Notes under the pieces: generated by a model | The model's input: only the letters and a program-made list of their open reading frames with translations | What the model was told of the DNA's origin: nothing | Databases searched by the model: none | Program-made: the position numbers and the translations under genes | DNA from: Actinomycetota bacterium | Lineage (GTDB): Bacteria > Actinomycetota > Geothermincolia > Fen-727 > Anoxymicrobiaceae | Assembly (NCBI GenBank): GCA_018896525.1 | Contig: JAHIMR010000105.1 | Coordinates: forward strand, 1 to 38,002 | Reading direction: 5' to 3' | Length of the DNA: 38,002 nt | Part shown: positions 4,626 to 34,996 of the stretch, piece by piece | Layout: each line of letters begins with the position of its first letter | Position numbering within the stretch: position 1 is the first letter of the stretch

Positions 4626-4649
4626 TATAATCGATCCCGGTAACTCTTT

Positions 4650-5747
4650 TCAGCTATCCAACTGGTGCAGGTACTCGGCAATGCCGTAACCGGTCTTGCC
4701 CTCGAAGTGATACTCGGTCAGCGCCTCGTTGATAAGGGTCTTATGTCCGTGAGCCTCCAGTTTCAATGGAGCAACCGTGAGGACGTCGCCGGTTATCTCT
4801 ATGGTCTTGCCTCCCGTGTCCTCGATTTGGAACTTCAACCGCTTCTGGGTAAGGCCGTCACTTTCGAACTCTGTCTCCAGCGCCACCCTCCTCAGGGGAT
4901 AGTTCACCCCACCCCTGGAGACGAAGCCGAAGAATAGGTCCACGCTGGCTATGGCAACCCGGCTCAGGTTGAAAGCGAGCTCGTCGCCGAACTGGCAGGT
5001 CAGCCAGGTCCAGAGGCGGGGCGCGGACCAGTCCCGGACCCCCCAGGAGTGGTCTCTCTGACCGCTTCCCTGGAACTCCATTTCCTGGTCCCCGATCTTG
5101 ATGGTCCCGGTTATCCGCATGGGTTGCTCGTTATGCTCGCTCGAAACCCTGGTGACCTCCCGCAGGTCCTCAAAACGCGTTCCGGCCCTTACCAGCATCT
5201 CGGCGATAGCGGTGGGGTTGGTGTTCTTGAAGTCGAAACAGGGCGACATTCCCTCCAGGGCCAGATCGAGTTCAACTCCCGTGAACTTCATGTTATCCGG
5301 ATCGACCTCGAAGAGATTCCTCGAGTCGTCGATATCGGCCATGTCTCCGTTGAACCGAAGGCGCCACCTCTTCAATGGTTCCAGGCAGTGGTACTCCAGT
5401 TGCTCAATCTTGAACTCGCCCACACTGAACGTGGTCCGCCCTCCCTGGCCGGCCGCAAGGACACGGCTGCCGCCGGCGTAAAGCATGAGGGCCCCGATGT
5501 CACTTTCCTGGTTGGGGAGGATACCTATCCTGGTCCACCCGCCTATCTTGCTACCCGGATCGGTGAAGTTGAAGTAGTAGCTCTCGTTCCAGTGGTGCTC
5601 ATCGGAAGGAACGTGGAGGTACTCGTCCTGGGGCACGGGAGGAGCTCCCGTCCTCTTCAGTTTCTTGTGGACGGCAATAGCAGAGCTCAAGGCCATGATC
5701 TTTGCCTTCTCGACAAGACCGGTTTCCGGCACCTTTACGCTTTCCAT
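4650..5747 (-). CDS. DUF7064/CrtC-like lipocalin-fold protein
   Basis: 365 residues. The signature GQRDHSWGVRDW at 229-240 and the flanking aromatic-rich strands match the DUF7065/DUF7064 pair, which is related to the lipocalin-like fold of hydroxyneurosporene hydratase (CrtC) and AttH. Family members bind hydrophobic ligands and often sit near steroid, terpenoid or fatty-acid genes; a catalytic role is unproven. No signal peptide is seen. AGGAGG five bases before the ATG at 5747 supports the start. The gene begins 18 bp after the RPH-like phosphotransferase gene, so it is clearly in its operon. Confidence 0.75.
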   Translation of the reverse strand: MESVKVPETGLVEKAKIMALSSAIAVHKKLKRTGAPPVPQDEYLHVPSDEHHWNESYYFNFTDPGSKIGGWTRIGILPNQESDIGALMLYAGGSRVLAAGQGGRTTFSVGEFKIEQLEYHCLEPLKRWRLRFNGDMADIDDSRNLFEVDPDNMKFTGVELDLALEGMSPCFDFKNTNPTAIAEMLVRAGTRFEDLREVTRVSSEHNEQPMRITGTIKIGDQEMEFQGSGQRDHSWGVRDWSAPRLWTWLTCQFGDELAFNLSRVAIASVDLFFGFVSRGGVNYPLRRVALETEFESDGLTQKRLKFQIEDTGGKTIEITGDVLTVAPLKLEAHGHKTLINEALTEYHFEGKTGYGIAEYLHQLDS

Positions 5748-5765
5748 GGGGACCTCCTGTTTTTT

Positions 5766-13224: not shown

Positions 13225-14385
13225 TTATCTTCTCATTACCACTACGGTGCCGACCTGCATGAGGTCGCCCCACGCCTGCGCCAAACCGCAGGTGGGGTTC
13301 CCCGGGACCTGCCGCTTCTCCGCTTCGCCGCGAAGCTGCAGGAAGATCTCAATGACCTTCATGAGACCGGTGGCGGAGATCGGGTTTCCAACCCCCAGCG
13401 CTCCCCCGGAGGGGCACATCGGCCTGTCGCCGTCGCGCTGGGTCACCCCGTCGGCCAGCAACTGCGGCGCTTCGCCCCGGTCCGCCAGGAGCAGGCCTTC
13501 CATGTGGTGCAGCTCCTTGTAGGTGAACGGGTCGTACGGCTCGGCTATCTCGATCTCTCTCCTGGGCTCCTTGATGCCGGCCATGTCGTAGGCCATCCGG
13601 GCGGCCTTCTCCACGTAACGAGGGTAGGAGAGGTCACGGGTCGCCCAGTACGCCGTGTCCAGGTTCCAGCCAACGCCGTCGATCCATACCGGCTTGTCGG
13701 TTATACGCTTGGCCGCGTGCTCGCCGGCCAGCACTATGGCCGCCGCGCCGTCGCTGGCCGGGCTGATGTCCAGCCGGTTTACCGGCCACGCCAGCAGCTC
13801 GCTGTTCAGCACGTCGTCCACGGTGATGTCCATGGGAAGCTGCGCCGACGGGTGGTCCATGGCGTTCTTTTTGTTCTTGACCGAAACCGGTGCGATATCC
13901 CTCTTGGTGAGGCCGTAGGTCTCCATGTACCGGTTGTACTCCAGGGCGAATATCCAGATAAGCGTGGGATCGAGCGCCTGCTCCGTGGTGTGGTCGAATA
14001 TCGTCAGGAACGCGCCCTGGGGGTGCGGATAACATGTCGACATCTTCTCGGAGCAGACCACCAGGCAGGTGTCGAACATTCCCGACGCCACGTGCATCCA
14101 CCCGTGGATGGGGGCGAAGACGCCGGTGCCGCCTCCCACGAACTGGCGCATGTACGGCTTCCGCCAACCTCCGGATCCGTCAGAGAGGTACTCGCCTTTC
14201 ATGTGCACGCCGTCAAAGGCGTCGGGGGCGGTGCCCAGGCTGACAGAGTCTATGTCTTTCAGCGAGAGCCCGCACGAATCAAGCGCCATCTTGGAGGCCT
14301 GCCAGGCGAGCTCTTTTCCGGTTTCCTGGGCGCGTCGGACGAACTTGGTTATCCCCGCACCCACAATTGCGACTTTTTGACTCAC
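13225..14385 (-). CDS. Thiolase-fold protein lacking the nucleophilic Cys (SCP2-thiolase/Ltp2-like)
   Basis: 386 residues with the thiolase framework: KVAIVGAGITKFVRR at the start, DGAAAIVLAGE in the middle, GGALGVGNPISATG and CGLAQAWG near the end. At the position where thiolases have CxSGxxAL the sequence reads GGTGVFAP, so the acyl-accepting cysteine is replaced by glycine. The usual GHP becomes GNP. Loss of these residues is known in Ltp2-type retro-aldolases that work with DUF35 partners. A C-C cleaving or acyl-CoA binding role is therefore more likely than classical thiolysis (inference). It starts with GTG at 14385 behind AAGGAGG. Confidence 0.8.
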   Translation of the reverse strand: MSQKVAIVGAGITKFVRRAQETGKELAWQASKMALDSCGLSLKDIDSVSLGTAPDAFDGVHMKGEYLSDGSGGWRKPYMRQFVGGGTGVFAPIHGWMHVASGMFDTCLVVCSEKMSTCYPHPQGAFLTIFDHTTEQALDPTLIWIFALEYNRYMETYGLTKRDIAPVSVKNKKNAMDHPSAQLPMDITVDDVLNSELLAWPVNRLDISPASDGAAAIVLAGEHAAKRITDKPVWIDGVGWNLDTAYWATRDLSYPRYVEKAARMAYDMAGIKEPRREIEIAEPYDPFTYKELHHMEGLLLADRGEAPQLLADGVTQRDGDRPMCPSGGALGVGNPISATGLMKVIEIFLQLRGEAEKRQVPGNPTCGLAQAWGDLMQVGTVVVMRR

Positions 14386-14398
14386 TGATCACACCTCC

Positions 14399-15550
14399 TT
14401 ACTTGTTGGATAGAATCGCGACAGCGGCTGAGGTCGTCGGCTCTCCCCGCCAGGCCTGCGCAAGGCCCGTGTGGGCGTTCGCGATCTGCCTGCTTCCCGC
14501 AGTCCCGCGAAGCTGGAGCACGATCTCCATAAGCTTCTGGGCCCCGGCTGCCTCGAACAGGTGACCAACTCCGAGGTCGCCCCCGGATACGTTGACCGGG
14601 AGGTCGCCTCCCCTGGTGGTGCGCCCGTCCTCGAGGGCGAGGCCGGCGCGACCGGGTTCGAAGAGCCTCAGAGCTTCAATGTACTCGAGTTCTTTGAAGG
14701 AAACCTCGTCGGTAACCTCCGCCAGGTCTATCTCCCTGGCGGGGTACTTGATTCCCGCCATCTTGTAGGCCATGTCGCCGGCGAGCCTTGTCGATACCGC
14801 GTTTCCCCAGTCACGGGACTCGAGGGATGGCGAATCGGTTGACCAACCGACCCCTTTGACCCATATGGGGTTGTCAGTCAGTGAACGGGCGGTCTGCTCA
14901 CTGCAGATAACGAAGACGATCGCGCCGTCCGCCACCTGGGCCAGGTCGAGGAGCCGGACCGGTTCGGAGACCGGTTCGGAGTCGAGGACGTTGTCCAGCG
15001 TAAGGTCCGCCGCGTAGGCGGCGACGGGGTTTTGGAGCGCGTTGGCGCGGTTCTTGACCACGACCCGGGCGCACTGCTCGCGGGTCGCCTTGCCGTCGTG
15101 GAGAAAGCGGTTCATGGCCAGGCCGGACACGTAGCTGTAATGCTCGTCAAGCGGCCTGTTCAGTATCGGGTCGAAAGCGAAGTTGACCATGTTGGGAATG
15201 GTCTTCATGTTGGACAGCTTGGAAAGGGCCTGTACCGCGACGATGTCGAACTGGCCGGTCAACACAAGCATGGTTCCGACGGCAAGAGAGTGGATGGCAT
15301 CTCCGGGAATCGTCTGTACCGGCTTGAGCACCGCACCAAGCTGGTCGTTGCAGTACTCGTCGGAGATGCTGTAACCCTCGCAGAAGTCCTCGGAGGTGCA
15401 GACGAACGTGTCGATGTCCTTCGGCTCAATCCCCACCTCGTTATACGCCTTGGCCGCCGCTTCGTACGTCAGTTCCCGGAAAGAAGTACCGGGCGACCCA
15501 GCGCTGAACTCGGTGTAGCCAAGGCCGGTAATAGCAACCTTGCCTATCAT
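14399..15550 (-). CDS. Second thiolase-fold protein lacking the nucleophilic Cys
   Basis: 383 residues, first gene of the operon. The thiolase scaffold is clear: KVAITGLGYTEF, DGAIVFVICSEQTARSL, SGGDLGVGHLFEAAG and TGLAQAWRG. In place of the CxSG nucleophile segment it has PGDAIHSLAVG, with no cysteine. The histidine of the late GH motif is kept, but the C-terminal catalytic cysteine seen as CG in many thiolases is HTG here. It is divergent from the 13225-14385 protein (about the same length, modest similarity), so it looks like an old paralogue and a probable heteromeric partner. GGAGG seven bases before the ATG at 15550 supports the start. Confidence 0.8.
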   Translation of the reverse strand: MIGKVAITGLGYTEFSAGSPGTSFRELTYEAAAKAYNEVGIEPKDIDTFVCTSEDFCEGYSISDEYCNDQLGAVLKPVQTIPGDAIHSLAVGTMLVLTGQFDIVAVQALSKLSNMKTIPNMVNFAFDPILNRPLDEHYSYVSGLAMNRFLHDGKATREQCARVVVKNRANALQNPVAAYAADLTLDNVLDSEPVSEPVRLLDLAQVADGAIVFVICSEQTARSLTDNPIWVKGVGWSTDSPSLESRDWGNAVSTRLAGDMAYKMAGIKYPAREIDLAEVTDEVSFKELEYIEALRLFEPGRAGLALEDGRTTRGGDLPVNVSGGDLGVGHLFEAAGAQKLMEIVLQLRGTAGSRQIANAHTGLAQAWRGEPTTSAAVAILSNK

Positions 15551-16254: not shown

Positions 16255-16383
16255 ATAAACGCAAGATGGTACCAGGTACAAACGCAATAAACGCAAGATG
16301 GTGACCGCAACAATGGGGCCAGGCCCCAACGCAACTACTTTATACGCAAAGTATGTGCAAAAAGGGCCTGGCCCCTTTTGCAC
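16255..16383. repeat. Cluster of AACGCAA-flanked hairpins
   Basis: The stretch between the divergent lipoprotein and M28 genes holds three palindromes separated by AACGCAA-like spacers: GGTACCAGGTAC near 16269, GGGGCC-A-GGCCCC (16315-16327), and a 14-bp-arm hairpin at 16355-16383 beginning GTGCAAAA and ending TTTTGCAC with one mismatch. The same design occurs after 37890. Confidence 0.8.
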
Positions 16384-16451
16384 AGGAAGGCCGGGGGGAG
16401 GATTCAGTCAGCGTAATGACGTATGATTATCAGTCAAGGAGGGGTTGCCGC

Positions 16452-17624
16452 ATGCACGAGCATTTTGACGGTCACAGGGCGTACAACCACATCGCTAAGC
16501 TATCCGCCAACCGGCGATTGCCGGGGGGGCCCGGGGAGGAACTCGCCCAGGCGTATATACGCGGGGCGGGTGAGGAGATAGGGGTGCCGATGCGCTCCGA
16601 GGAGTTCACCTACGCCACCTGGCCGCTAACCGTGTTTCTGCCCGGGATATGCCTGATCCTGGCGGCGATCTGCCTGGTGGGCTCGTTCACCTACCTGTGG
16701 GGCAACTACCTGGTTGTGGTGCCGGGACTGGTCCTTCTCCTGGCCATGCAGTTGAGCTCTAAGTGGACAGGCGCGTTTGAGAGATTCGGAGCAAGGGGTG
16801 GCGACAAGCGCTCGCTCAATCTCATCGGCGAGATCAAGGGCGAGGATGCGTCGGGCACAGTCATACTCTCCGCGCATTACGACTCCAAGAGCCAGACCAT
16901 GCCGGTCATCCTGCGGGCGGGCCTGTTCATACTCGGTTTCGGTACCGCGATACTTCTCGGCTTCTGGTTGGGGGTGGCGGGGATACTGGAGTTTGCGGGG
17001 GTTACCGTCCTTGGAAACCGTGCGATCTTTTTCGTTTCGCTCGTCCCGGCGCTGTTCCTGTCACTCCTGGTTTTCAACTTCACCGGGAACAAGTCGCCGG
17101 GCGCGCTGGATAACGCGTCGGGCGAAGCGGTGATACTGGAACTGGCGAGGGTCCTGGCAGTAAGGCCCCTGCGGAACTTCGATGTCCGAGTCGCGTCGTT
17201 CGGCTGCGAGGAGGTCGGGCTCTGCGGGTCGATCAACTACCTGCTGGAGCACGAGGAGGAGTTGAAGAAACGCCCCTGCTTCATGCTCAACTTCGACATG
17301 CCGTTCTCGGCGGCCGGGCAGCTATACGTCAATACCGGCTTCGAGATGCCGCCGAACTCTACCAGCAGGCGCCTGAACGAGCTTGCCTGCAAGGTGGCGG
17401 CGGACAGGGGATTGGAGATGAAAGAAATCTACCTGCCGGTGGGAGCTGCCGCGGACCATATGCCATGGGTCAAGCACGGTTTCGAGGCGACCGGGTTTGT
17501 ATCGGTGGCAACTTTCATACACCAGGCGGGGGACTCCCTGGACAGGATCAACAGAGAGGGCCTGAGGAGGGCGGGAGAAGTCGCTCTGGAGGTCTTACGT
17601 ACGCTGGACCGGGAGCATTCGTAG
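16452..17624 (+). CDS. M28-family metallopeptidase with transmembrane helices inside the catalytic domain
   Basis: 390 residues from ATG 16452, chosen because AAGGAGG lies nine bases upstream; in-frame codons back to 16353 run through repeat DNA. Metal ligands of a co-catalytic zinc aminopeptidase are present: H142 and D144 (SAHYDSK), D220 (PGALDNASG), E253/E254 (GCEEVGL), D282 (NFDM) and H357 (FIHQAGD). Four hydrophobic segments are visible, two at about 58-103 and two at about 155-210. The second pair sits between H142/D144 and D220, which are normally close together. The enzyme is therefore a membrane protein with a catalytic domain interrupted by a helical hairpin. It is convergent with the fusion flavoprotein gene, 14 bp away. 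Confidence 0.85.
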   Translation: MHEHFDGHRAYNHIAKLSANRRLPGGPGEELAQAYIRGAGEEIGVPMRSEEFTYATWPLTVFLPGICLILAAICLVGSFTYLWGNYLVVVPGLVLLLAMQLSSKWTGAFERFGARGGDKRSLNLIGEIKGEDASGTVILSAHYDSKSQTMPVILRAGLFILGFGTAILLGFWLGVAGILEFAGVTVLGNRAIFFVSLVPALFLSLLVFNFTGNKSPGALDNASGEAVILELARVLAVRPLRNFDVRVASFGCEEVGLCGSINYLLEHEEELKKRPCFMLNFDMPFSAAGQLYVNTGFEMPPNSTSRRLNELACKVAADRGLEMKEIYLPVGAAADHMPWVKHGFEATGFVSVATFIHQAGDSLDRINREGLRRAGEVALEVLRTLDREHS

Positions 17625-17638
17625 CCACGTAACCAACG

Positions 17639-20509
17639 TCAATCAGGGGCGGCTTCCAGGTGGCGGTGTATCGAGATCGCCGCACTGCGCCCGTCGGCGC
17701 AGGCGGAAACGACCAGGTTCCCTCCCGTAACGTCCCCCCCGGCAAAAACGCCGGCCCGCGAGGTTGCCAGGGTTTCTTTATCAACCTGTATCGTTCCGTC
17801 AGGGTTGAGATTCAACTGTGTGCCCAGGTACTCAAGGGTGGCGGTGTCGAGTTCCCTTTCCCGGGCGATGATTACTGTTCCTACCTTCAAGATGTCAGGG
17901 TAATCGTTGTCGGTCGCCGGAGTTTGTGCCCAACCGCCGGTGGGCCTGGTCTCGAGGCCTTCCACTCTCCCTTCACCCAGGACCCCGGTGACAGTTTTCC
18001 CGGTGACAAACTCGATGCCCTGTTCCCGGGCCGCTTCAACGTGGCCGGGGGCCGCCGCCATTTTTTCCTCATTATCGGCGGTAACGAGGAAAACCCGCTC
18101 GGCCCCCAGCGTAAGGGCGAGCTTGCCGGTGTCGATGGCCAGGTCGCTGTCGCCGAGAACCGCCACCCTGGGAGTAAGCTCTCTGGTGACCTTGCGGCGC
18201 GCGGAGAAGAGGAAAGAAAGCGCGTCTATAACTCCCGGCAGGTCGATGCCACGGATATCCGGCATGCGCACTGCCTGGAGGCCGGTTCCCAGGAAGACCG
18301 CCTTGAACCCTTCGCGCCACAAAGAATCGAGATTGATGTCGAGGCCGAACCTGGTGTTGCCGCGAAACTCGATTCCGGACGACAAAGCACACTCGACCTC
18401 CCTCAGGAGCGCCTGCCCGCCAAGGCGGAATTCCGGAATCGCGTTAGCGGGAAGCCCCCCGGAGTCCACACCGGCCTCGAATATCTCCACGTTGTGCCCG
18501 AGCAGGGAGAGGAAGTATGCGCAAGACACACCGGCCGGGCCCGACCCGATTACCGCTATCTTCTCGCGCCTCTCGCCTTCCACGGGTTCAGGCCATCCCT
18601 CCGGCCCGGGAGCCGAGCCGCAGACCAGCGCCTCGAGCCGGGCTATTTTCAATGGCGTGTCCAGGTCCGCGCGCCGGCATTTCGCCTGGCAGAGCTCTTC
18701 CGCGGGGCAGATAAGGCCGCAGGTTTCCCCAAGGGGGTTGGCTTCCCTTATCAACCTTGCGGCTCCGGCGAAGTCCGCCGCACCCACCCGGCGAATGAAG
18801 TTCGGGATGTCGACCCCCGCGGGGCATGCCCGCATGCAAGGGGCGTCGGTGCACCGCAGACAGCGGTGTGATTCGAGGACCCCGGATATCGTATCCACAA
18901 CCGCTTCACCGGAGACCCGCGGGCGTACCGGCACCGTCTCCAGGACGGGACTCACTTCAGTTTCATGGAACTTAGGGGGACGAACCCCGAGGTACCTCAG
19001 CGTTGCCAGGGCGCAGTTTACCCCGGAGGCAGCGGCCAGCGCCACACCTCTCCCGTAAGACGTCGAGTCTCCGGCGAGGAATAGACCCCGTATCCCGGTG
19101 ACGGCCCCCGGAAGGCCGGAAGGTGCCGGCAATCCATCAACGCGAGGTCCGGCCAGGGCCCCGCCTGGCCTTCCGGTACGGCGCTCGAACGCGGCCGGGC
19201 CGGCGACGGACCTGCCTGTTGCGGCGTCCCCTATTCCGGGAATCACTCTCTCGACCCTGGAGAGCACGCTGTTCGCCTTTTCCTCCTCCAGCCGGGAGTT
19301 TGCCCCGGAGTCGTACTCCGGATCTCCGGGCGAAGGCCGCGTCCCAGGGTCTGCCAGGCGGATGGAAACGGAGTGGTAACCTTCAGGTGAAAGGTTGGGG
19401 TCCAGCAACGAGGGGACGCTGATGGCGATGAAATCGCCCGGATCGCGTTCCGGGTTGTCTATCAGTACCGTGTCCGGCTGAAGGTCGTTGGGGATCGCGG
19501 CCTCGGGAACACCAAGGTCGATTGTAAAAACGCCCGGCGCCGGCTGGAGCGAGTCTGCCCATTGGACGGTTTCCGGCCGGAGGTGCTCACTTGCGACCAG
19601 GTGCCTGAACACGTTACACACGGAGATGCCCGACACGACCGCACGGGACCGTAGAACGCGCCCGCCGGCGAGGCGCACCCCGGCGGCCCGCCTTTCCTCG
19701 ACGATTATCTCCTCGACCGGAGTACGAAAAACGATATGCCCGCCGTAAGAGACGATGCTCTTCTCCAGGCGGTCAGGTATCTGCTGGGAGGAGCCAATGG
19801 GGTAATGGGCACCCCCGACATGACGGTCTATTATTGAAAGGGCGGCCTGGATGACCGAGACATCACGGATGCCGTAGCCGGTGCTGTATACAAGGTCCGC
19901 TTCGAAGAAGGCAAGGACGAGTGGGTTGTCGATGTAACGGAGCAGCAGCTTCTCGGTGCTCGTCCGGCGATAGCGTGACAGGCGCATCATGCCGAGAGGG
20001 TGCCTGGCCAGGAGCCCCCACTTGTGAGACGTGGACTCATCGCGCGGCGGCCTTGGCGGGCCGGAGGCGTTAAGAATGGCCTGGTAGACGTGATCGAGTT
20101 CGCGTGTGAACGATAGAATGCTTCCGGCCTGCTGGGGAAAGATCGCGTTTACGTCGGCGCTGAAGGCCTGCCGGTCGGCACGAAAGTCGATAGATTGATC
20201 GCCGAAGTACATGCGGTACGCGCTATCGAGGGGAATCAGTTCCACCTGCTGGTTCAGGTAGTCGAACAGCGTCCGAAGGATGTGGAACCCTGCCTCACCG
20301 AAGCCGCTGAGAATAGAGGCGGCCATGTCGAAGGTGAAGTCGCCGGCCTTGAACGAGGAACAACAACCGCCTGGCGCGTGGGATTGCTCCACCACCAGCA
20401 CCTCCAGGCCGCTGCCGGCCAGCACCGCCGCCGTGGAAAGCCCCCCGATCCCGGCTCCAACAACGATAACCTCGTAGCCGTCCTTGAGGATTGGTTCATT
20501 TGTGCTCAA
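17639..20509 (-). CDS. Fusion flavoprotein: CrtI-like oxidoreductase + GltD/DPYD-like Fe-S FAD/NAD(P) module
   Basis: 956 residues, about twice either parent. Residues 11-510 form a phytoene-desaturase/retinol-saturase-like flavoprotein: VVGAGIGG dinucleotide motif (17-24), GGCCSS, and FLAGDSTSYGRGVALAAASG near 478-496. Residues 545-620 hold eight cysteines in two groups (C550, C553, C558, C562; C597, C601, C607, C611), the N-terminal two-cluster domain of glutamate synthase small subunit and dihydropyrimidine dehydrogenase. Residues 649-956 are the matching FAD/NAD(P) unit: VIGSGPAG (653-660) and GVFAGGDVTGG near the end. The second nucleotide motif reads VLGDSDLAID rather than GGGNVAMD. NAD(P)H could feed the CrtI-like site through Fe-S clusters (inference). 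The start is TTG at 20509 behind AGGGA. Confidence 0.85.
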   Translation of the reverse strand: MSTNEPILKDGYEVIVVGAGIGGLSTAAVLAGSGLEVLVVEQSHAPGGCCSSFKAGDFTFDMAASILSGFGEAGFHILRTLFDYLNQQVELIPLDSAYRMYFGDQSIDFRADRQAFSADVNAIFPQQAGSILSFTRELDHVYQAILNASGPPRPPRDESTSHKWGLLARHPLGMMRLSRYRRTSTEKLLLRYIDNPLVLAFFEADLVYSTGYGIRDVSVIQAALSIIDRHVGGAHYPIGSSQQIPDRLEKSIVSYGGHIVFRTPVEEIIVEERRAAGVRLAGGRVLRSRAVVSGISVCNVFRHLVASEHLRPETVQWADSLQPAPGVFTIDLGVPEAAIPNDLQPDTVLIDNPERDPGDFIAISVPSLLDPNLSPEGYHSVSIRLADPGTRPSPGDPEYDSGANSRLEEEKANSVLSRVERVIPGIGDAATGRSVAGPAAFERRTGRPGGALAGPRVDGLPAPSGLPGAVTGIRGLFLAGDSTSYGRGVALAAASGVNCALATLRYLGVRPPKFHETEVSPVLETVPVRPRVSGEAVVDTISGVLESHRCLRCTDAPCMRACPAGVDIPNFIRRVGAADFAGAARLIREANPLGETCGLICPAEELCQAKCRRADLDTPLKIARLEALVCGSAPGPEGWPEPVEGERREKIAVIGSGPAGVSCAYFLSLLGHNVEIFEAGVDSGGLPANAIPEFRLGGQALLREVECALSSGIEFRGNTRFGLDINLDSLWREGFKAVFLGTGLQAVRMPDIRGIDLPGVIDALSFLFSARRKVTRELTPRVAVLGDSDLAIDTGKLALTLGAERVFLVTADNEEKMAAAPGHVEAAREQGIEFVTGKTVTGVLGEGRVEGLETRPTGGWAQTPATDNDYPDILKVGTVIIARERELDTATLEYLGTQLNLNPDGTIQVDKETLATSRAGVFAGGDVTGGNLVVSACADGRSAAISIHRHLEAAPD

Positions 20510-22338: not shown

Positions 22339-23868
22339 TCACCAGCCGTGGTCCCGCACGATGCATGCGGACGCGTTGATGCCTGAAACCATCACCAGGG
22401 GCACGCCACCGCCGGGGTTGGTGCTGGCACCGGCCAGGTATAGGTTGCTTATGACCGGCGATCGCCACGAGGGCCTGAACGGGCCCAGGTTTGGAATGCT
22501 CATCTCGAGCCCGTATATCGACCCCTCCGGCAGGAGCAGTTCCCTCTCGAAGTCCACCGGTGTTCTCATGTCCCGGTCCTGCACCATCTCCCGAAAGCCG
22601 GGGATCACGGTACGCTCGATGTGGGAGGCGGACTCCTCGATGAACTCCGGCTTGTACTCGTCCCAGTTATGGTACTTGAGCCGGTACGGGCCGCAGGTGA
22701 GGAGGCCCAGGGAGAACTTGCCCGGCGGCGCCAGCGTGGGATCGGTGATGCTGGGACATACTATCCCCCGGGGGAGATCCTCCATGGGTGGCATCAGTCC
22801 CCGGGCGTAGTACTCGTCCCAGTAGGCGTTCAACTGCTCGGGGGGCGGGACCATGACCGTAAAGTGGCACCTGATCTCCTCCGGTTTTTCCGAAAGCCCG
22901 AAGTAGACCATCGGTGCCGGGATGGAGAGGGTGTACTTCTCGATGGCCCGGGCGAAGCGGGCGGGCAGGTGCTCCCGGCCGACCAGGTCCAGGTAGGTGG
23001 GGATGGCGCTGGCGTTCGACAGGACAACACAGGCGCGGATGACTTCACCATCACCCGTTTCGACACCAACCGCGCGACCGTTCTCCACTACTATGCGGGT
23101 CACCGGCGTGTTCATGCGGATTTCGGTCCCGTTCTCCCGGGCGATACGGGCCATCGCCCCGGGGATGGCGCCCATCCCCCCGCGGGGGTACCAGTAACCC
23201 TCGTGCGAGAGGTAACTCATTACCGCGAATATCCCGTTTATCCGGTCGGCCGGGATGCCCGCGAACAGGTTCTCGAACGACAGTATCGTGAGCGCCTTGC
23301 GGTCCCTCAAGAACCGCCGGTTCACCGCGTCCTGGGTGCTGGTGACCACCCGGAGGATGGCGGGGATGGCCCTCATCAACTTAAGGCTGGCCGCCATCTT
23401 CAGCAGGTGCCCCGGCGTGCCGAACCGCTCCAGTGGAGGGAACGGCTTGTCTACCATCACCCTGGCCGCGTTCCACACCGTCTTCATCTCCCGGCAGAAC
23501 TCCAGCCACCCCTCGCGGTCCCCGGGAGCGAACTCCGATATCACATCGGCCGTCTCGACCGGGTCCATGGGCAGCAGCACGCTGCTGCCATCCTTGAAGC
23601 GCATATCGTATACGGGGTCGAGGAGGTCCAGTTGGACGTACTCATCCAGGGTGAGCCCCATCATCTCGAAGAAACGGTCGTACAGTTCCTTGTAGAGGAT
23701 GAAGATGGCGCCGACATCGAACTTGTGCCCGTTCAGGTCGTAAGAGGCGCAGCAACCCCCCAGGCGCTCACTGCGCTCCAGGAGGAGGACACTCCTGCCT
23801 CTTTTCGAGAGGAGGTCCGCGCAGGTCAGCCCCCCGATCCCTGAGCCAATCACAATCACGTCGTACAA
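22339..23868 (-). CDS. CrtI/phytoene-desaturase-like flavoprotein
   Basis: 509 residues, typical for CrtI-like enzymes. The FAD-binding motif is VIGSGIGGLTCADLL (6-20), then ERLGGCCASYDLNGHKFDVG, and the C-terminal FAD segment is GASTNPGGGVPLVMVSG, the family hallmark. These enzymes desaturate, isomerise or saturate polyenes (phytoene, retinol) and are membrane-associated. No phytoene synthase is nearby, so carotenoid synthesis should not be assumed. The start is TTG at 23868 behind GGGAG at eight-base spacing. It is the last gene of the long minus-strand redox operon, 31 bp after the next FAD oxidoreductase gene. Confidence 0.85.
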   Translation of the reverse strand: MYDVIVIGSGIGGLTCADLLSKRGRSVLLLERSERLGGCCASYDLNGHKFDVGAIFILYKELYDRFFEMMGLTLDEYVQLDLLDPVYDMRFKDGSSVLLPMDPVETADVISEFAPGDREGWLEFCREMKTVWNAARVMVDKPFPPLERFGTPGHLLKMAASLKLMRAIPAILRVVTSTQDAVNRRFLRDRKALTILSFENLFAGIPADRINGIFAVMSYLSHEGYWYPRGGMGAIPGAMARIARENGTEIRMNTPVTRIVVENGRAVGVETGDGEVIRACVVLSNASAIPTYLDLVGREHLPARFARAIEKYTLSIPAPMVYFGLSEKPEEIRCHFTVMVPPPEQLNAYWDEYYARGLMPPMEDLPRGIVCPSITDPTLAPPGKFSLGLLTCGPYRLKYHNWDEYKPEFIEESASHIERTVIPGFREMVQDRDMRTPVDFERELLLPEGSIYGLEMSIPNLGPFRPSWRSPVISNLYLAGASTNPGGGVPLVMVSGINASACIVRDHGW

Positions 23869-23899: not shown

Positions 23900-24964
23900 T
23901 CACTGTGTCAGGCGCCAGCCGGGGACGTTGTCGGCGAAGCGCTTCACAGCCCGGTCCTCGATATAGGGTAGAGCGTTACCTCCGGCGCGCACCAGGGGCC
24001 GTTTGATGCAGTCGGGCAGCAGGTCCCAGACCTTCTTGACCACATACGTGGGGTAGAAAGTCGCAACCGCCCTTCGGAACTCGTCGTACGCCTCCGCCTT
24101 GTCCTCGATTGCCCTGGCCGCGACGCGGCCGGTGACCAGCGCTCCCAGCATCCCGAAGAACAGGAACGGGTCGATTACGCCTGCAAAAGTTCCGGCAAGT
24201 ATCTTGTTGCCGTGGAAGAGGCGGGGGTTTCTTATGCTGCCCACCGGGCAGGCACCTCCCATGAGGTCTGTCCACTGGCTGAACTCGGCCCCTTCAAGCT
24301 CGGCCAGCATGGTGACGAACTTTTCCTTGCCCTCCCGGGTTAGTGGCACGTCTCTCTGGAACAGGAGGGCGAACGATACCCCGTTGATAACGCAGTAGAA
24401 CGCGTAGTCCCTGGTGAACGTGTCCATCCACAGGGATACGGTCGTACGGTCGTGGTCCACCGTACCCTTGGCGAAGTAGCCATAGAGGGGGGAGTAGGGG
24501 ATGTTCAACGCCTCGTACGGCTCGATCTTGAGGCCGGTCGAGATGATACTGTCGGCGGGTAATCTGGCGTAGTCGCCCTGGGTGATGACCGGGTGGCCGA
24601 ACTCGACGTTTACCCCCAGTTTCTCCGCTTCCGCGAGGAGAAGGCTGTCCAATGACGATGAGCGGGACCCCCTTTCCACCATATACATGTCGATGGATCC
24701 CTGTAGAGGCATCCGGTATCGCCTGCCCCAGGCTATCAGGCTGGCTTCGTCCAGCGGCTTCGCCGCCGGAGCGATGTCAACTCCGGTAAAGCGCTTGATG
24801 CCCTCGATATCGAACGGGCTTCCCGCCGGGTCGGGCCTGAACTCCAGCATGCCCCCGATGCGGTCCTCCCGCTCCAGGATGTTCACCTGGTGCCCCACGC
24901 GGGCCAGGTTTATAGCCGCCACAAGCCCGGATATACCGGCGCCTACGATTGTCACTTCCTTCAT
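23900..24964 (-). CDS. FAD oxidoreductase, geranylgeranyl-reductase-like, paralogue B
   Basis: 354 residues. VTIVGAGISGLVAAINLARVG gives the N-terminal dinucleotide motif, and NPRLFHGNKILAGTFAGVID then FFGMLGALVTGRVAA resembles the late FAD-contacting helix of geranylgeranyl-reductase-like and FixC-like flavoproteins. It shares a private family pattern with the genes at 25006 and 31618: ERGSRSSSLDS, VxFEF near 125, and LPADSIISTGL. Reduction or oxidation of a hydrophobic substrate is likely; the exact reaction is unknown. GGAGG seven bases before the ATG at 24964 supports the start. It is inside the minus-strand redox operon. Confidence 0.75.
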   Translation of the reverse strand: MKEVTIVGAGISGLVAAINLARVGHQVNILEREDRIGGMLEFRPDPAGSPFDIEGIKRFTGVDIAPAAKPLDEASLIAWGRRYRMPLQGSIDMYMVERGSRSSSLDSLLLAEAEKLGVNVEFGHPVITQGDYARLPADSIISTGLKIEPYEALNIPYSPLYGYFAKGTVDHDRTTVSLWMDTFTRDYAFYCVINGVSFALLFQRDVPLTREGKEKFVTMLAELEGAEFSQWTDLMGGACPVGSIRNPRLFHGNKILAGTFAGVIDPFLFFGMLGALVTGRVAARAIEDKAEAYDEFRRAVATFYPTYVVKKVWDLLPDCIKRPLVRAGGNALPYIEDRAVKRFADNVPGWRLTQ

Positions 24965-25005
24965 CGTTCCACCTCCGGATGGTGTGTTCTCCCCGGTCCG
25001 CCTTC

Positions 25006-26088
25006 TCAGTAGGGGAGCTGCTTGTACCCGGGCAGCGCCTTGAAGAAGTTGTCCATGAAGCCCTTGAAGATATCGGCGTGGTCCTGGGAGAACTGGAACT
25101 GGGCCGGCAGTATCTTCTTCCTGAGCCCGACCGGCACGCTGTCGAAGAACCTCCTCAAGAACAGGTTTCGCTTGTAGAACCTGATGTAGCGGGTATAGAG
25201 CTCGAACGCCTCCCGCCTGTTTTGATGCGCCATCGCCGCTATCTTCCCCGAGACCAGCGAGCCGTGCACTCCGAACAGCGCGAACGGGTCCATCATACCG
25301 CCCAACGTCCCCGCCAGGATCTTATCTCCCACGAACAGGCGCGGGTTGTCGTAGGCGCCGGTGGGCACCAGGCCCTCGTGGTAGTTCCAACTGGCGCACC
25401 CCATTCCTTCCTGGCCTTCGAGTTGCCTCTCCTTGAACTCTTCCCACTCGCTGTCCCTTACCGGCTCCCTGGCGAAGTAAAGGGAGAACACCACGCCGTT
25501 GGCGGCGCCGTAGTAGGCGTAATCCAGGATGTAATCGTGGAACCACACCGCGCACAGGGCGCCCTTGTCGGTCTTGCCCCGCCCCATGTATCCGTAGACC
25601 CGCTGGTAAGGGATGCCCAGCGCCTCGAACGCCTTGAAGTAGAGGCCGGTGGCGATGATGGAGTCGGGCGGCAACCGGGCGAAGTCACCCTGGCTTACCA
25701 ACTCTTTGCCGAACTCGAAGGAGACCCCCGCCTCCAGGCACTTATCGTACAGGAGCTTGTCCAGGGCGGTATCACGGGAGCCCCTTTCCACGCAGTGCAG
25801 GTTTAGATGGGTCAGATCCATGGTAACTTGATGGTCATAAGTGTACAGGTTCCAGTTCTCGACAGGCGTTACCTGGGGCTTGTTCAGGTCGACCCCGATG
25901 AACCTGCCCAGCGGGCCGGGCTCTATCGGGGTGACGTCCACCGCGGGATGGATCTCGGGCATGCCTCCGACCCTGTCGTACTTCTCCAGGACCAGTACAT
26001 CGTGTCCGTCCCGGGCCAGGTTCAGCGCCGCGACGAGCCCGGCCAGGCCCGCTCCCACCACGATTACCTCCGATGATTCCGTTGCCAT
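25006..26088 (-). CDS. FAD oxidoreductase, geranylgeranyl-reductase-like, paralogue A
   Basis: 360 residues from the ATG at 26088. An upstream in-frame ATG at 26103 contains the SD itself (GGAGG), and that SD is ideally placed eight bases before 26088, so the shorter start is preferred. Motifs match its paralogues: [52 protein letters not shown] and [17 protein letters not shown]. The C-terminal 90 residues are rich in Phe, Arg and Lys and could associate with membrane. It lies 41 bp upstream of paralogue B and follows the small TM gene. Confidence 0.75.
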
Positions 26089-26134
26089 CTTGCGCACCTC
26101 CATTGGTGTATCAAACTATTGACCCCCACCTCAG

Positions 26135-26415: not shown

Positions 26416-28032
26416 CTAGAACAGGACCTTTTTCATCGTGCCGGTGTCGTACTCCCATCGGCGGTTGGATATGTTGTTGGGGTCGAGTGCCATCTTCATC
26501 CTGGTGAACGTTTCCATGAACTGGACCATGTTTGGCTGCGCCGCCGGCATCGCCAGGTCCATCATCGGCATCCCCTTGATAAGCGCCCCCGCGCCGGCGG
26601 CGATTATCATGCCCTGCGCCATCGCGGTGATGGTCGCCCTCCCGTAGCCCATCAGTATCCTTATCAGGTCGTCCTTGTCGCATTGGTTGGTGTACATGTC
26701 GTACTCCATATAGGCGGAGCGACCCATGTGATACGGCTGGAGGTAGGTCGAGGCGTCGTCGGGAGCGAGGGCGTCGTCGGTGGTGCCCACCTGGTTGGTG
26801 CACGCTTCTCTCATCGTCTTCTCTATCCCCACCATGTTCTCCAGCTTGTCGATGAGCGCGCCTATCATGAACGAGCCGCGTACCCGCTGCACCCTTACGG
26901 TGACGTTGAAGTACTTGACCCAGGTGTCGAAGTTGACGTAATCGTACTCCTCGGTGAGGTCTTCCATGGCCTCAATTGGAAGGAAGCTGAAATCAGGAAA
27001 ATGCTCCTCCAGCATCTTCTCGGTAAGTTCCGACTTGAGGTCCGCCTCCTCCTGCGTCTCCCCCCCGAAAATGGTGACCAGGTTGTGCCTGGGCATCAGC
27101 TCGGTAACCTTGGCCGCTTCCTTGTTGGTCTCTCCCAGGAATATCCCGAAGAAGGAGTCCATCATGTGGGCCAGCTCCAGGCAGAGGTTGTCCTGGGCGA
27201 CCATCTCCAGGGCTTCGGCCATTACCTCCAGCCTGTCTTCCTCGTAGGAGGGGAATACCTGCTGGTGGAACCTCGCCTCGGGGTAGAGCCGGATGGTCAT
27301 CCGGGTGACTATCCCCAGGGTGCCGAACGCGTAGCGGAACATAGTAGAGAGGTCCGGCCCCGGTCCGGGTACGTGGCCTTTCACCGCACCGTAGGAGTTC
27401 GGCCCCGTCTTCAGGATGTCTCCGTTGGGAAGCACCATCTCCACGTCGATGATGTTATCCATCCCGAACCCGTACTTGGAGGCCATGGTGTTGATGTTGC
27501 AGAACGCGTGGTTGCTGATGACCCCGGCGGTTGCGCTGGTGGATGGATTGAGCACCCGGCAGCCCGCCTTCTGGGCGGCGACCTGCAGCACCAGGTAGTT
27601 GACCCCAGGCTCGATGATCGCGAACATGTTCTCTCCATCAAGCTCCACAATCTTGTCCATCCGGCGCAGGTCGCAGATGATGCCCCCGTAGGTGGGGAGC
27701 GCCATTCCGGCGGTGGTCAGCCCGGTGCCGAACGGCATGACGTCGATGAGGTACTCGTTGGCGACCCGGTAGACCGCCCCGACGTCCTCGGTGGAGGCGG
27801 GCATGCACACGACATGCGGGTAGGAAGCGGGGGTGAAGCTCTGGTCGCGGGCGTAGCCGCAGAGGATAGACGGAGAGTCGGTCGCCCACTCCTCGCCAAG
27901 TGCCTCCCGCAGGGCGGCCAGGGCCTTCCCCAGGTTCTCCACCCGGTTATGGTCCGGGTCTTTCTCCATCACCTGGGGCCTGTGTACGACCCGCCTCTCC
28001 CTGAGTTCCTCCCTTATCCTGCTCTTTGACAT
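26416..28032 (-). CDS. FAD-linked oxidase, GlcD/lactate-dehydrogenase-like (PCMH-type FAD domain)
   Basis: 538 residues. The PCMH-type FAD domain covers about residues 70-250: PHVVCMPASTEDVGAVYRVA, MPFGTGLTTAGMALPTYGG, IIEPGVNYLVLQ, STSATAGVISNHA and FGTLGIVTRMTIRL. The C-terminal cap ends with ALDPNNISNRRWEYDTG. Members oxidise 2-hydroxy acids, or aryl/alkyl ethers and alcohols, and pass electrons to partner Fe-S proteins. GGGAGG six bases before the ATG at 28032. It starts 14 bp after the CCG-type Fe-S gene, which points to a stable complex of the two. Confidence 0.85.
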   Translation of the reverse strand: MSKSRIREELRERRVVHRPQVMEKDPDHNRVENLGKALAALREALGEEWATDSPSILCGYARDQSFTPASYPHVVCMPASTEDVGAVYRVANEYLIDVMPFGTGLTTAGMALPTYGGIICDLRRMDKIVELDGENMFAIIEPGVNYLVLQVAAQKAGCRVLNPSTSATAGVISNHAFCNINTMASKYGFGMDNIIDVEMVLPNGDILKTGPNSYGAVKGHVPGPGPDLSTMFRYAFGTLGIVTRMTIRLYPEARFHQQVFPSYEEDRLEVMAEALEMVAQDNLCLELAHMMDSFFGIFLGETNKEAAKVTELMPRHNLVTIFGGETQEEADLKSELTEKMLEEHFPDFSFLPIEAMEDLTEEYDYVNFDTWVKYFNVTVRVQRVRGSFMIGALIDKLENMVGIEKTMREACTNQVGTTDDALAPDDASTYLQPYHMGRSAYMEYDMYTNQCDKDDLIRILMGYGRATITAMAQGMIIAAGAGALIKGMPMMDLAMPAAQPNMVQFMETFTRMKMALDPNNISNRRWEYDTGTMKKVLF

Positions 28033-28046
28033 GAGAAGCCTCCCGT

Positions 28047-29249
28047 TTACAGTGCTTTTTCGATGACCTCGGCGAGGTCGTAGACGTCCAGCTTGTACTT
28101 GCCTTCACTCGCGGCGCTCTCAAACATCCGCACGCAGATGGGACAGGAGGTGACGATCGCCTCCGCGCCGACAGAATCGGCCTCAAAAAGCCGCTCGTTG
28201 GTTACCCACCGGACGTACTCCGGCTCCCAGAAGAACACAGAACCGCCACCGCCGCAGCAGAGAGAGTTCTTGAGGTTCCGCTCGAACTCCAGCAACTCCA
28301 GCCCCGGCATCGCCTCGAGCACCTTGCGCGGGGCCTCGAACACCCCCTGGCGGCGGCCGAGCCGGCAGGGGTCGTGGTAGACGGCCTTGACCTTGACCTC
28401 GTTCGCGAGCTTCAGCTTGCCTTCGTCTATCAGACCGGCGGCGATCTCGGAGAAGTGGTATACCTCGATATCGATTGCCTTCGCGTACTCCTCCTTGAGG
28501 ACGGTGTAGGCGTGGGGATCGGCGGTTATGACCTTGCCCGCGCCGGACTCCTCGATCTTCTCTGTGTTGGCGGCGGCCACTGTCTCGAAGTAGTCCCGGT
28601 CGCCTATCATGAGCAGAGCGCTGCCGCTGGAAACCTCGGCTGTGCCCAGGGTCCCGAACTCCACGCCCCCCGCCCGCAGAACCTTCGCCACTGCTTTCAT
28701 GCGGGGCGCGAGCTCGGGGAAGACGCCGTAGTCGTCACCCACGAAGAGCAGGTACTCGACTTTCTCGTCCAGGGCGTTCTTGATGTCCAGGCCATCTTCC
28801 CACTCGACCCTCTTCCTGGCGGGAACCCCGTAGGGGTTGTCGGTTTTCTCGATGTTATCGAGCATCTCCGAGAACTGTTCCATCGGGGCCCACCCGTCCT
28901 GCACCGCCTGCTCACGCAGGAGCTGGATAACCCACAACGGGTGCATCTGCTTGACGGGGTAGCAGCGGTCCTCGCAGGATCCGCACAGCATGCAGGTGTA
29001 CAGGGCGTGCCGCATCCGGTCGTCCGGCTCGATCTCCACCAGGTCCAGGCAGCGGGCTATCTCCAGCTTGCCCGAGGCGTAGTACGCCTCGTAGCGGAAG
29101 CGAGTGCCGGACGGGCAGTTCCGCCAGAAGCGAGGTTCTTCACACTGCTGGGCCATGACCGCCTGGCACAGTTTGCATTTGCCGCATAGCGAGAAATCCT
29201 CTCTCAGTTCCGAGAGCACCTCGCGCGGGGCGGTGATTCTGCGCTTCAT
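28047..29249 (-). CDS. Fe-S electron-transfer protein with CCG domain (GlcF/HdrD-like)
   Basis: 400 residues. Two N-terminal cysteine clusters are visible: C22, C25, C28, C36 and C86, C89, C92, C96, fitting two [4Fe-4S] sites. One complete CCG motif follows: YHDPCRLGR (C295), CCGGGG (C331, C332) and CPIC (C369, C372). The expected first CCG site is degenerate: where CxxC would precede LKEEY the sequence is ADPHAYTVLKEEY. Such proteins link FAD dehydrogenases to quinones or other carriers. The SD (GGAGG, nine bases before the ATG at 29249) lies within the terminal arm of a palindromic element, so translation may depend on RNA folding. Confidence 0.85.
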   Translation of the reverse strand: MKRRITAPREVLSELREDFSLCGKCKLCQAVMAQQCEEPRFWRNCPSGTRFRYEAYYASGKLEIARCLDLVEIEPDDRMRHALYTCMLCGSCEDRCYPVKQMHPLWVIQLLREQAVQDGWAPMEQFSEMLDNIEKTDNPYGVPARKRVEWEDGLDIKNALDEKVEYLLFVGDDYGVFPELAPRMKAVAKVLRAGGVEFGTLGTAEVSSGSALLMIGDRDYFETVAAANTEKIEESGAGKVITADPHAYTVLKEEYAKAIDIEVYHFSEIAAGLIDEGKLKLANEVKVKAVYHDPCRLGRRQGVFEAPRKVLEAMPGLELLEFERNLKNSLCCGGGGSVFFWEPEYVRWVTNERLFEADSVGAEAIVTSCPICVRMFESAASEGKYKLDVYDLAEVIEKAL

Positions 29250-29255
29250 TGTCTA

Positions 29256-29417
29256 GTGCCTCCTTCCATGGGTACGGTTGAGCACCGAGAGCGTCGAAGC
29301 GCCGCTCCGGCAAGGCGCGCGACCGAGACGTACTCCTGTAGTACGTCTTGGGAGCGGAACGCAGCCGGTGTGGATGCAGCGGCGTTCGAATGCCAGCGTA
29401 TTTGTGGAAGGAGGCAC
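29256..29417 (+). repeat. Palindromic dispersed element, copy 1 (162 bp)
   Basis: Terminal arms GTGCCTCCTTCCA (29256-29268) and TGGAAGGAGGCAC (29405-29417) are perfect inverted repeats. Inner complementary pairs follow: TACG/CGTA, a GCGCCGCT/AGCGGCGT region and CCGGC/GCCGG, capped by a GACGTACT/AGTACGTC hairpin. The whole element can fold into one long stem. It fills the gap between two operon genes: one arm abuts the stop of the upstream FAD gene, and the other contains the SD of the Fe-S gene. Confidence 0.85.
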
Positions 29418-30818
29418 TTAGATCCCTTCCAGTAGCTCGTCGGGGTTGAGGAGGCCCTTTGGATCGACGATTCTCTTGAACAGCTTGATCATCTCCACGT
29501 ACGACGGGTCCGTCCGGGAGTAGACCATCTCGGCAACCGGCCCGGTAGGCTTGTCGATGAACGCTTTGTTGTCCAGAAGCGCCTCGCATGACCCCAGGTA
29601 GGCGGCCTCCGCCGACCCCGCCGCCTTCTCGTTCCCGGAGTTGTAGTAAATGTCAGCGCCGCAGTATGCCGCGCCTCCGAAGTAAGTGGGGACCAGTATC
29701 TTTCCTAAGTCGTCCGGCTTGCCCCCCGCCGCGCTTACCTGCTCTTCGATTACCTGGAACGTCTCGGGGACGTTCTTGAAGTACTCGTAGCAGTAGACGT
29801 GCCGGCAATCACCCTTGTAGAAGTTTCTGTCGTAGACGTACCACGGCTTACTGAGCGACTTCTCCAAGCCCTCGGGGACCTGGCCGCGAAGATGCTTTCC
29901 GCCAAGCTCTTTCGCCGCTTCCTTGATGTACCCTTCCCATAACTCCACGAGCTCCTTGTGGTGCTCCATGGTGATGACCACGGTCCACGGCTTGAGCTTC
30001 TTCTTGAGGGCGGACACCTTGCCGGCGTCCCCCCCGGCGAGCGTTACCGAAAGGTAGCGGTCGTTTGCCGCGAAAGCCTCGAAGCACCAATCGGCGCGGC
30101 TTACCTTGTAGATGAGGTCCTTTGCGGGGCCGACCTCGTCAAACCCGAAGGCCACCAGCCGTCGCTCCTCACGGTTGGGGTAGGTGTAGACCAGGCCGTA
30201 GTAAGGGATTCCGAATATATCCTCCGATGCCCCGAAGAACGGTGAGAACTGGGGCCCCTGGTCCTCCCTGAAGTCGGCGTGGCCCTCATCGGTCATCTGC
30301 TGCGAGCCGGAGACCCATAGCTGACCGTCGGCCATCATGGCGTGGAAGACGGAGAGGTGGGGGTGCCGGTACCCCCCGGAGCCCATCAGGATATCCCGGT
30401 CGATGTATGACCGCAGGACGAATGGGGACTGACCGGCGACCGGGAACAGCAACCGCTGGTTCTCCTTGTCCAGTTCCTTCTGGAGCTGCTCGAAGGTCAC
30501 GCCCGCATAGACGAAGGCGGTCAGGTTCCTGGTGTCGATCTTCTTGATCCGGTTCATCCTGGCCAGGTCGACCAGGACGCCCTCCTTCTTCGCCAGGGAC
30601 TTATCCGAGAACTTTCTTTTGAGCGAGAAAAGGGGTATCTCGTTTTGGTGACAGAAGGCCGCGACATCGGAAAGCTGGTCCACGTTCTCCGGGGTCACCA
30701 GCAGGAGGTCGGTGCCGGAGACCGGCTCCTTGAAGTACGGTGAGACGGCCCTGTCGCCGCTTCGCACGTTTCCGTCCCCAAGGAGTCTCTTGAGCTCTTT
30801 GGTCGCGCTTGGGTTCAT
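29418..30818 (-). CDS. Divergent FAD-linked oxidase subunit (GlcD/GlcE-like)
   Basis: 466 residues. The FAD domain is in the first half: GTDLLLVTPENVDQLSDVAAFC, VLVDLARMNRIKKID, AFVYAGVTFEQLQKEL and LFPVAGQSPFVLRSYIDRD. The C-terminus IVDPKGLLNPDELLEG is the common end of this superfamily. The middle is unlike well-known members. With the CCG protein and the 538-residue oxidase it makes a three-part FAD/Fe-S/FAD set resembling glycolate oxidase GlcDEF, although the two FAD proteins are both longer than GlcE. GGGAGGAG is close to the ATG at 30818. It follows the SCP2-like gene by 31 bp. Confidence 0.8.
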   Translation of the reverse strand: MNPSATKELKRLLGDGNVRSGDRAVSPYFKEPVSGTDLLLVTPENVDQLSDVAAFCHQNEIPLFSLKRKFSDKSLAKKEGVLVDLARMNRIKKIDTRNLTAFVYAGVTFEQLQKELDKENQRLLFPVAGQSPFVLRSYIDRDILMGSGGYRHPHLSVFHAMMADGQLWVSGSQQMTDEGHADFREDQGPQFSPFFGASEDIFGIPYYGLVYTYPNREERRLVAFGFDEVGPAKDLIYKVSRADWCFEAFAANDRYLSVTLAGGDAGKVSALKKKLKPWTVVITMEHHKELVELWEGYIKEAAKELGGKHLRGQVPEGLEKSLSKPWYVYDRNFYKGDCRHVYCYEYFKNVPETFQVIEEQVSAAGGKPDDLGKILVPTYFGGAAYCGADIYYNSGNEKAAGSAEAAYLGSCEALLDNKAFIDKPTGPVAEMVYSRTDPSYVEMIKLFKRIVDPKGLLNPDELLEGI

Positions 30819-34160: not shown

Positions 34161-34996
34161 CTCGGGAGTACCGGCACGGCGGTTGGGACGAGTGGCTCCA
34201 GCGCCTGGAAGGGAAGGTCCGGGGGGCGCCGGAGGTTGCCTGGCTCGACCGGATAGCGGACCGGGTCCTGGACAAGGCACGTCTCCGGCGTGGGGACAGC
34301 GTGGTAGACCTGGGCACCGGGCACGGTCTGCTGGCGATGAAAGCGGCGCGCGCTGTAGGGCCGGGCGGCACCGTGGTGGCGTTAGACTCCGACCCCGGTT
34401 GCCTGGATGAGCTGCGGCGGCGCCGTGATAGCATGAGTATCAGGAGTATCCTGACGGTTGTCGGCCGCATGGAGGACCTGCCTCTCGAGTCAGAGAAGTA
34501 TAGCGCCGTTGTATGTCGTTCGGCGCTGACATATTCGGAGAACCTGGGTGCCGTGGTATCGGAGATATCAAGGGTAATGGCGCCGGGGGGCCGGTTCTCG
34601 GTATTCGAGCCGCTGGCGGGAGAGATGGAATGGAGGGCTGATGAGGGTGTTTCGCTCGAGGGTTTTCTCCGGCTGGAGCGAATCGTTTCCGAGGAGCGGG
34701 AACCACGGCCTCCGGACCGCGAGAGTTTAAGGCGCGCGTTCGCCGACCGGTTCGGTGGCGTGGAGTCGCTGGTGGTCCACCATAGAGTAACGTTCGAGGG
34801 TATGTGTGTAGAGGAGATAGCCGGTGAGTACCTTCACGACCTGCCCGGCGAAATGGCAGCAACGCAGGTGCTGGGCCGGCGGGTTCCCGGGGAAGACGTT
34901 ATGAGCGCGGTCTCGGGTTTCGCCCGCGAGGCGTCATCGGGAAAGGTGAAGGGGCGCCTGCCGTGCATATTCCTGTGGGGAGTTAAGGCCGTATAG
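34157..34996 (+). CDS. Class I SAM-dependent methyltransferase
   Basis: 279 residues. Motif I is VVDLGTGHG (49-57), followed by VVALDSDPGCLDEL, the acidic ribose loop; VVGRMEDLPLESEKYSAVVCRSAL and ISRVMAPGGRFSVFEP are motifs II to post-III. It resembles UbiE/COQ5-like small-molecule methyltransferases. GTG start overlapping the CrtI-like stop by four bases. The C-terminal 120 residues are more variable and probably set the substrate. Being tied to a CrtI-like gene, it may methylate a terpenoid or quinone-like product (inference). Confidence 0.8.
   Translation: MTREYRHGGWDEWLQRLEGKVRGAPEVAWLDRIADRVLDKARLRRGDSVVDLGTGHGLLAMKAARAVGPGGTVVALDSDPGCLDELRRRRDSMSIRSILTVVGRMEDLPLESEKYSAVVCRSALTYSENLGAVVSEISRVMAPGGRFSVFEPLAGEMEWRADEGVSLEGFLRLERIVSEEREPRPPDRESLRRAFADRFGGVESLVVHHRVTFEGMCVEEIAGEYLHDLPGEMAATQVLGRRVPGEDVMSAVSGFAREASSGKVKGRLPCIFLWGVKAV

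Follow-up and report, generated by a model that had tools for sequence, protein, structure and literature searches.

CrtI-type enzymes are generally seen as catalysts of oxidative steps in carotenoid metabolism, and the CrtISO/CrtI family (TIGR02730 and TIGR02734; PDB 4dgk and 4rep) is the closest described relative of the first half of the protein reported here, with which it shares its fold and FAD motifs. A parallel to the chemistry proposed below, the saturation of isoprenoid double bonds by a flavin, is found in geranylgeranyl reductases, which have a different fold and an external donor, and in retinol saturase, a lone CrtISO-like domain. A reduced CrtI-type flavin has precedent: CrtISO depends on FAD in its reduced state, and in the absence of oxygen CrtI, once its FAD is reduced, isomerises prolycopene (PMC3382138). 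In M. acetivorans the geranylgeranyl reductase is fed by ferredoxin and a CrtI homologue makes hydroxyarchaeol (PMC10821996). The second half of the protein resembles a family of Fe-S flavoproteins. Among these, NfnL (NfnA), the large subunit of NADH-dependent ferredoxin:NADP oxidoreductase (5jfc, 4ylf), combines two [4Fe-4S] clusters, one Glu ligand included, with an FAD/NAD(P) fold, and DPD (1h7w) has a similar layout, in which an NAD(P)H-type FAD module is linked by an Fe-S relay to a second flavin that reduces C=C bonds. GltD, the small subunit of glutamate synthase, and PRK12771-type proteins belong to the same sequence family.

Here, we report a single protein in which a CrtI-type module is genuinely fused to such an Fe-S flavoprotein, coupling the CrtI fold to an internal Fe-S relay. 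The gene lies in a stretch of 38,002 nucleotides, hereafter the window, and has the following parts:

17639..20509, (-) strand: complete fusion gene, stop-free ORF of 956 aa starting with TTG
18980..20509, (-) strand: N-module, residues 1-510, CrtI/CrtISO-type FAD domain (Pfam, TIGR02730, AF2 model)
18878..18979, (-) strand: linker, residues 511-544, kept across the order (alignment; profile match)
18620..18877, (-) strand: Fer4_20-type domain with two putative [4Fe-4S] clusters, residues 545-630 (Pfam, ligand alignment)
18200..18562, (-) strand: FAD-binding half of the C-module, residues 650-770, GSGPAG (Pfam, alignment, AF2 model)
17825..18172, (-) strand: degenerate NAD(P)-binding subdomain, residues 780-895 (loop loss, identity ratio)
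18143-18154, (-) strand: GDSD loop, residues 786-789 (alignment)
17654..17797, (-) strand: second FAD-binding half, residues 905-952, FAGGD (alignment)

The same colinear ORF recurs, across four families, in every other genome sampled from the window's order (12), so that the fusion is present in 13/13. An assembly join or frameshift at the junction is ruled out by this identical layout throughout the order and in other phyla, and so is an oddity of a single genome. Four of the 13 copies are incomplete and most of the others are single ORFs. The copies of G009 and G010 are truncated at contig ends, that of G012 is in two pieces on two contigs with the break exactly at the contig ends, and that of G007 (C226; loci L016 / L130) is interrupted by a change of frame near residue 740, reflecting either a sequencing error or a pseudogene. 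In the alignment of the order invariant residues flank the linker on both sides and the linker itself is conserved; by profile, it matches the N-terminal segment that precedes the Fe-S domain of DPD.

Each half has matches far beyond chance. Pfam placed Amino_oxidase/NAD_binding_8 at residues 21-500 (above cut-off), Fer4_20, the Fe-S family of DPD domain II, at 544-629 (3e-25) and Pyr_redox_2 at 650-938. The best NCBIfam model of the N-module was the carotenoid isomerase TIGR02730, with 231.9 bits, below the equivalog cut-off of 586.9 bits that defines CrtISO, and the CrtI family model TIGR02734 gave 144.7 bits against a cut-off of 238.1; the fusion thus falls outside both families. The two modules were folded separately with AF2. 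The N-module model (pLDDT 74.5, from an input of only four sequences) had its best fold matches in the CrtI-type structures 4rep, 3ka7 and 4dgk and places it in the CrtI/CrtISO superfamily fold with amine-oxidase-type FAD binding. The C-module model (pLDDT 85.7) aligned with NfnL and DPD at TM 0.86-0.90 (0.87-0.89 for NfnL), and its best NCBIfam model was the GltD-like PRK12771; by its Fer4_20 domain, cluster ligands and FAD motifs it is a module of the DPD domain II/GltD/NfnL type. The layout nevertheless differs from each of these systems. NfnL is paired with NfnS and not with a CrtI fold, and no NfnS-type partner of a bifurcating Nfn was recognised among the window genes scanned. The second flavin of DPD is an FMN in a C-terminal TIM barrel, which by Pfam is absent here along with the second Fe-S pair, so the fusion is not a DPD; its own second flavin would be the FAD of the N-terminal CrtI fold. 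No PDB chain matched across both modules and no description of the layout was found in the open-access subset of the literature that was searched, which agrees with the earlier impression that no characterised enzyme is built in this way; novelty is accordingly provisional.

The Fe-S domain contains eight cysteines (550, 553, 558, 562, 597, 601, 607 and 611), as originally noted. Alignment to NfnL and to DPD with its assigned ligands indicates that C597 is not a ligand and that E626 fills the eighth position, so that the predicted ligands are seven cysteines (550, 553, 558, 562, 601, 607 and 611) and E626. All seven cysteines are kept in the 35/35 tabulated fusion rows from the order, Desulfobacterota and archaea, f11 (see below) being outside this table. 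The eighth position (window 18632-18634), the non-Cys ligand of the second cluster, varies by clade: 11/12 sequences of the order have Glu there, whereas Desulfobacterota and archaea have Gln or His, with His in all short archaeal forms. In NfnL the Glu at the equivalent position ligates the proximal cluster and influences its coupling (PMC9503767).

The fusion is not confined to one genome and occurs in the window's order, in Desulfobacterota and in an archaeal phylum. A scan of genome contigs was dominated by ordinary GltD proteins. Full-length relatives were present in 6/247 genomes of Desulfobacterota (the phylum of Desulfosarcina), often in several copies, up to five per genome, and the complete ORFs measure 938-1060 aa; in one of these genomes, G493 (L163, G493:C246), three full-length fusion genes stand in tandem. 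Of 196 genomes of the archaeal phylum, eight carry the fusion, two at full length and the rest as forms of 789-819 aa. Next to one archaeal copy are genes for a protein with gelsolin repeats and for a proteasome subunit, and since gelsolins occur in Asgards (PMC9433394) the archaeal carriers are probably Asgard archaea. In f11, another family of the window's phylum, four genomes encode proteins of 626-629 aa in which the CrtI part is followed by a decayed Fe-S domain with eroding ligands and the flavoprotein is gone. No fusion was found in the samples of Chloroflexota (251 genomes), the phylum of Clostridiales 1_7_47_FAA (250) and Acidobacteriota (247), or in 199 genomes from the phylum of Scalindua, a sample without a positive control; all phylum counts refer to samples and do not imply absence outside them. 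Apparent short copies in G447 (L161, 682 aa) and at L162 proved to contain runs of N in the assembly and were left out, and apparent fusions at L040 and L052 were other than CrtI fusions.

In the N-module tree all fusions grouped with f11 in a single clade (SH-aLRT 93) that excluded the standalone CrtI-like proteins. In the C-module tree the fusion C-modules likewise grouped together (100), to the exclusion of 60 standalone homologues, which distinguishes them from GltD and PRK12771-type proteins. Both trees share the main split between the window's order and the rest. These trees are most simply explained, and likely so, by one fusion event after which both modules were inherited or transferred together. 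Placement of f11 outside the flavin-bearing fusions was rejected by the AU test (p 0.0001). The test also rejected (p 0.007) a tree with both f11 and the short archaeal forms outside the NAD-bearing fusions, so the stripped forms reflect secondary losses and not ancestral states.

The genes conserved around the fusion in the window's order are:

16353..17624, (+) strand: membrane M28 peptidase, convergent, conserved neighbour (synteny)
22339..23868, (-) strand: a second, separate CrtI-family protein of 509 aa (synteny; TIGR02734 304.8 bits, which passes the cut-off)
23900..26103, (-) strand: two FAD proteins of 354 and 365 aa (synteny)
26416..30818, (-) strand: FAD_binding_4 protein (538 aa), CCG Fe-S protein (400 aa) and FAD_binding_4 protein (466 aa), a GlcD/GlcF-like set

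The CrtI-family gene, the two small FAD proteins and the GlcD/CCG/GlcD-like set form a block common to families of the order, and the GlcD/GlcF-like part, a possible redox partner, is found also in locus L134. The M28 peptidase is probably unrelated to the fusion. Geranylgeranyl reductases were considered for the 354- and 365-aa proteins, and neither PDB nor NCBIfam gave such an assignment. In Desulfobacterota a gene of the geranylgeranyl-reductase superfamily adjoins the fusion at five loci (about three independent lineages), and genes for BaiCD-like old yellow enzymes are beside it at several. In archaea a GT87 glycosyltransferase, of a family that uses polyprenyl-linked sugars, is present at four fusion loci and UbiA at one, and a 180-aa membrane protein with no Pfam match is common to five (L208:11626-12165, L206:6310-6849, L198:2497-3036, L210:5640-6188 and L207:9039-9593). 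These neighbours suggest that the chemistry concerns C=C bonds of hydrophobic substrates. The name CrtI-like suggests a carotene, a weak link: phytoene/squalene synthase (PF00494) was absent in 25/26 carrier genomes including the window's, the MAGs being incomplete, while the same search was positive in 7/14 control genomes. Most carriers are therefore unlikely to use the enzyme on a carotene, and judged by the presence of SQS/PSY in the same genome the fusion does not qualify as a carotenoid biosynthesis enzyme.

We tentatively favour the reading, to which we would give somewhat less than an even chance, that the protein is an anaerobic flavoenzyme that reduces C=C bonds of a hydrophobic, non-carotenoid substrate. 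Electrons would enter at the C-terminal FAD and pass singly over the two [4Fe-4S] clusters to the N-terminal FAD, which would hydrogenate the substrate, possibly a polyprenyl or terpenoid chain; the donor would probably have been NADH in the ancestor, as in present Desulfobacterota, and another in the window's order. The fusion, its single origin, the cofactor motifs, the decay of the NAD site and the missing carotenoid entry enzyme are directly supported; the direction of electron flow, the donor and the substrate are inferred. That a usually oxidising or isomerising fold has been turned into a reductase, as originally suggested, is plausible. Electron transfer from NADH to an alkene is downhill, and the reductase genes beside the Desulfobacterota fusions, together with GT87 and UbiA beside the archaeal ones, support the proposal. 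Against it, the N-module resembles isomerases too, the separation of the two FAD sites may be too large, the conserved neighbours in the order are, CrtI-like proteins aside, not typical C=C reductases, and the f11 relatives function, if at all, without an electron module. With still more reserve, we consider it possible that the fusions constitute a cross-domain family of Fe-S-wired CrtI-fold reductases that act on lipids other than carotenoids in anaerobes, Asgard archaea among them. According to lineage, the NAD(P)H port of this family would have decayed, been cut out or been lost with the whole flavoprotein, switching the donor away from NADH. The fusion bears on the role of the CrtI-like proteins of such organisms, most of which have no assigned function, and possibly on anaerobic saturation of polyprenyl lipids.

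The reaction could also be redox-neutral, the electron module merely keeping the N-terminal FAD reduced for a CrtISO-like cis-trans isomerisation, or a hydration, of a polyene or polyprenyl chain. We regard this as unlikely but serious. The carotenoid isomerase is the best family model of the N-module, the isomerisations by CrtISO and by reduced CrtI (PMC3382138) and the hydroxyarchaeol made by a CrtI homologue (PMC10821996) fit such a role, and a purely catalytic use of electrons would make it less surprising that f11 has lost the electron module. A dedicated relay from NADH over two [4Fe-4S] clusters would however be costly just to prime a flavin in anaerobes, the Desulfobacterota neighbours are net C=C reductases, and the score of the isomerase model is far under its cut-off.

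The reductase reading leaves the donor to be considered, and the original prediction had NAD(P)H wired directly to the CrtI-type active site. As also noted, the NAD(P) loop is altered: it reads GDSDLA in the window protein, with VTA where an NADPH-type YRR is expected, and thereby departs from the GGG[ND]xA loop and YRR of NADPH-dependent GltD and NfnL. None of the order's sequences (0/12) retains a GGGN-type loop; in its place are GDSD, GDGD, GESN, GNNN, GCGR and others. Outside the order a GGGSVA(A/S)(D/N) loop is retained in 11/11 Desulfobacterota rows and 2/2 full-length archaeal rows, where the strand after the loop ends in an acidic CLE. An acidic strand end is typical of NADH use, and loop and CLE together suggest NADH as the donor in these copies. 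Within the order the NAD subdomain is the least conserved and fastest-evolving part of the C-module, with a mean identity of 0.38 against 0.60 in the adjoining FAD half; the NAD/FAD identity ratio at matched FAD identity was 0.64 in the order, 1.00 in Desulfobacterota and archaea and 0.91 in standalone proteins. In the archaeal copies of about 800 aa the NAD subdomain is missing from between the two FAD halves. Loop loss and rapid evolution make direct wiring to NAD(P)H doubtful for the window protein. That it still binds NAD(P)H and passes its electrons to the CrtI-type FAD is improbable on these grounds, despite the retained FAD motifs and overall NfnL/DPD fold and the intact loop and acidic strand end of its relatives. 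The NAD(P) site has decayed in the order, and the protein is then probably fed by a different donor, which may be ferredoxin or the GlcD/CCG set encoded nearby, by way of the FAD and clusters that it keeps. With their different degrees of stripping of the NAD(P)H site, the lineages form a ready-made series in which the source of the electrons can be studied.

An outward flow, in which the CrtI module dehydrogenates its substrate and the clusters pass electrons to an acceptor such as the GlcD/CCG set, ferredoxin or a partner resembling ETF, would suit the classical CrtI desaturases, the unavailability of O2 as acceptor in anaerobes and the nearby CrtI-family gene that passes the desaturase cut-off, but is highly improbable given the missing carotenoid entry enzyme and the uphill desaturation of an unactivated chain with NAD+ or ferredoxin as acceptor.

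Other genes near the fusions were observed. Two consecutive SCP-x-type thiolase-domain proteins are encoded at window 13225-15550, and several genomes of the order have related genes close to their fusion; a third, divergent CrtI-like protein (window 32706-34996) has a four-base overlap with a methyltransferase gene. A radical SAM/B12 protein, a DUF7064/7065 protein and a PPDK_N/PEP-utiliser protein follow one another at window 2907-8519, and PPDK_N is fused to a PlsY-like domain near one archaeal fusion. In f11 a TspO/MBR-like gene (L137:6226-7038) is directly upstream of the gene for the CrtI part and decayed Fe-S domain, similar sequences occupy the same position at L138:179-982 and L139:7449-8243, and a SOUL haem-binding gene is upstream at L136:8371-8925, so that a link to tetrapyrroles is possible in this family.
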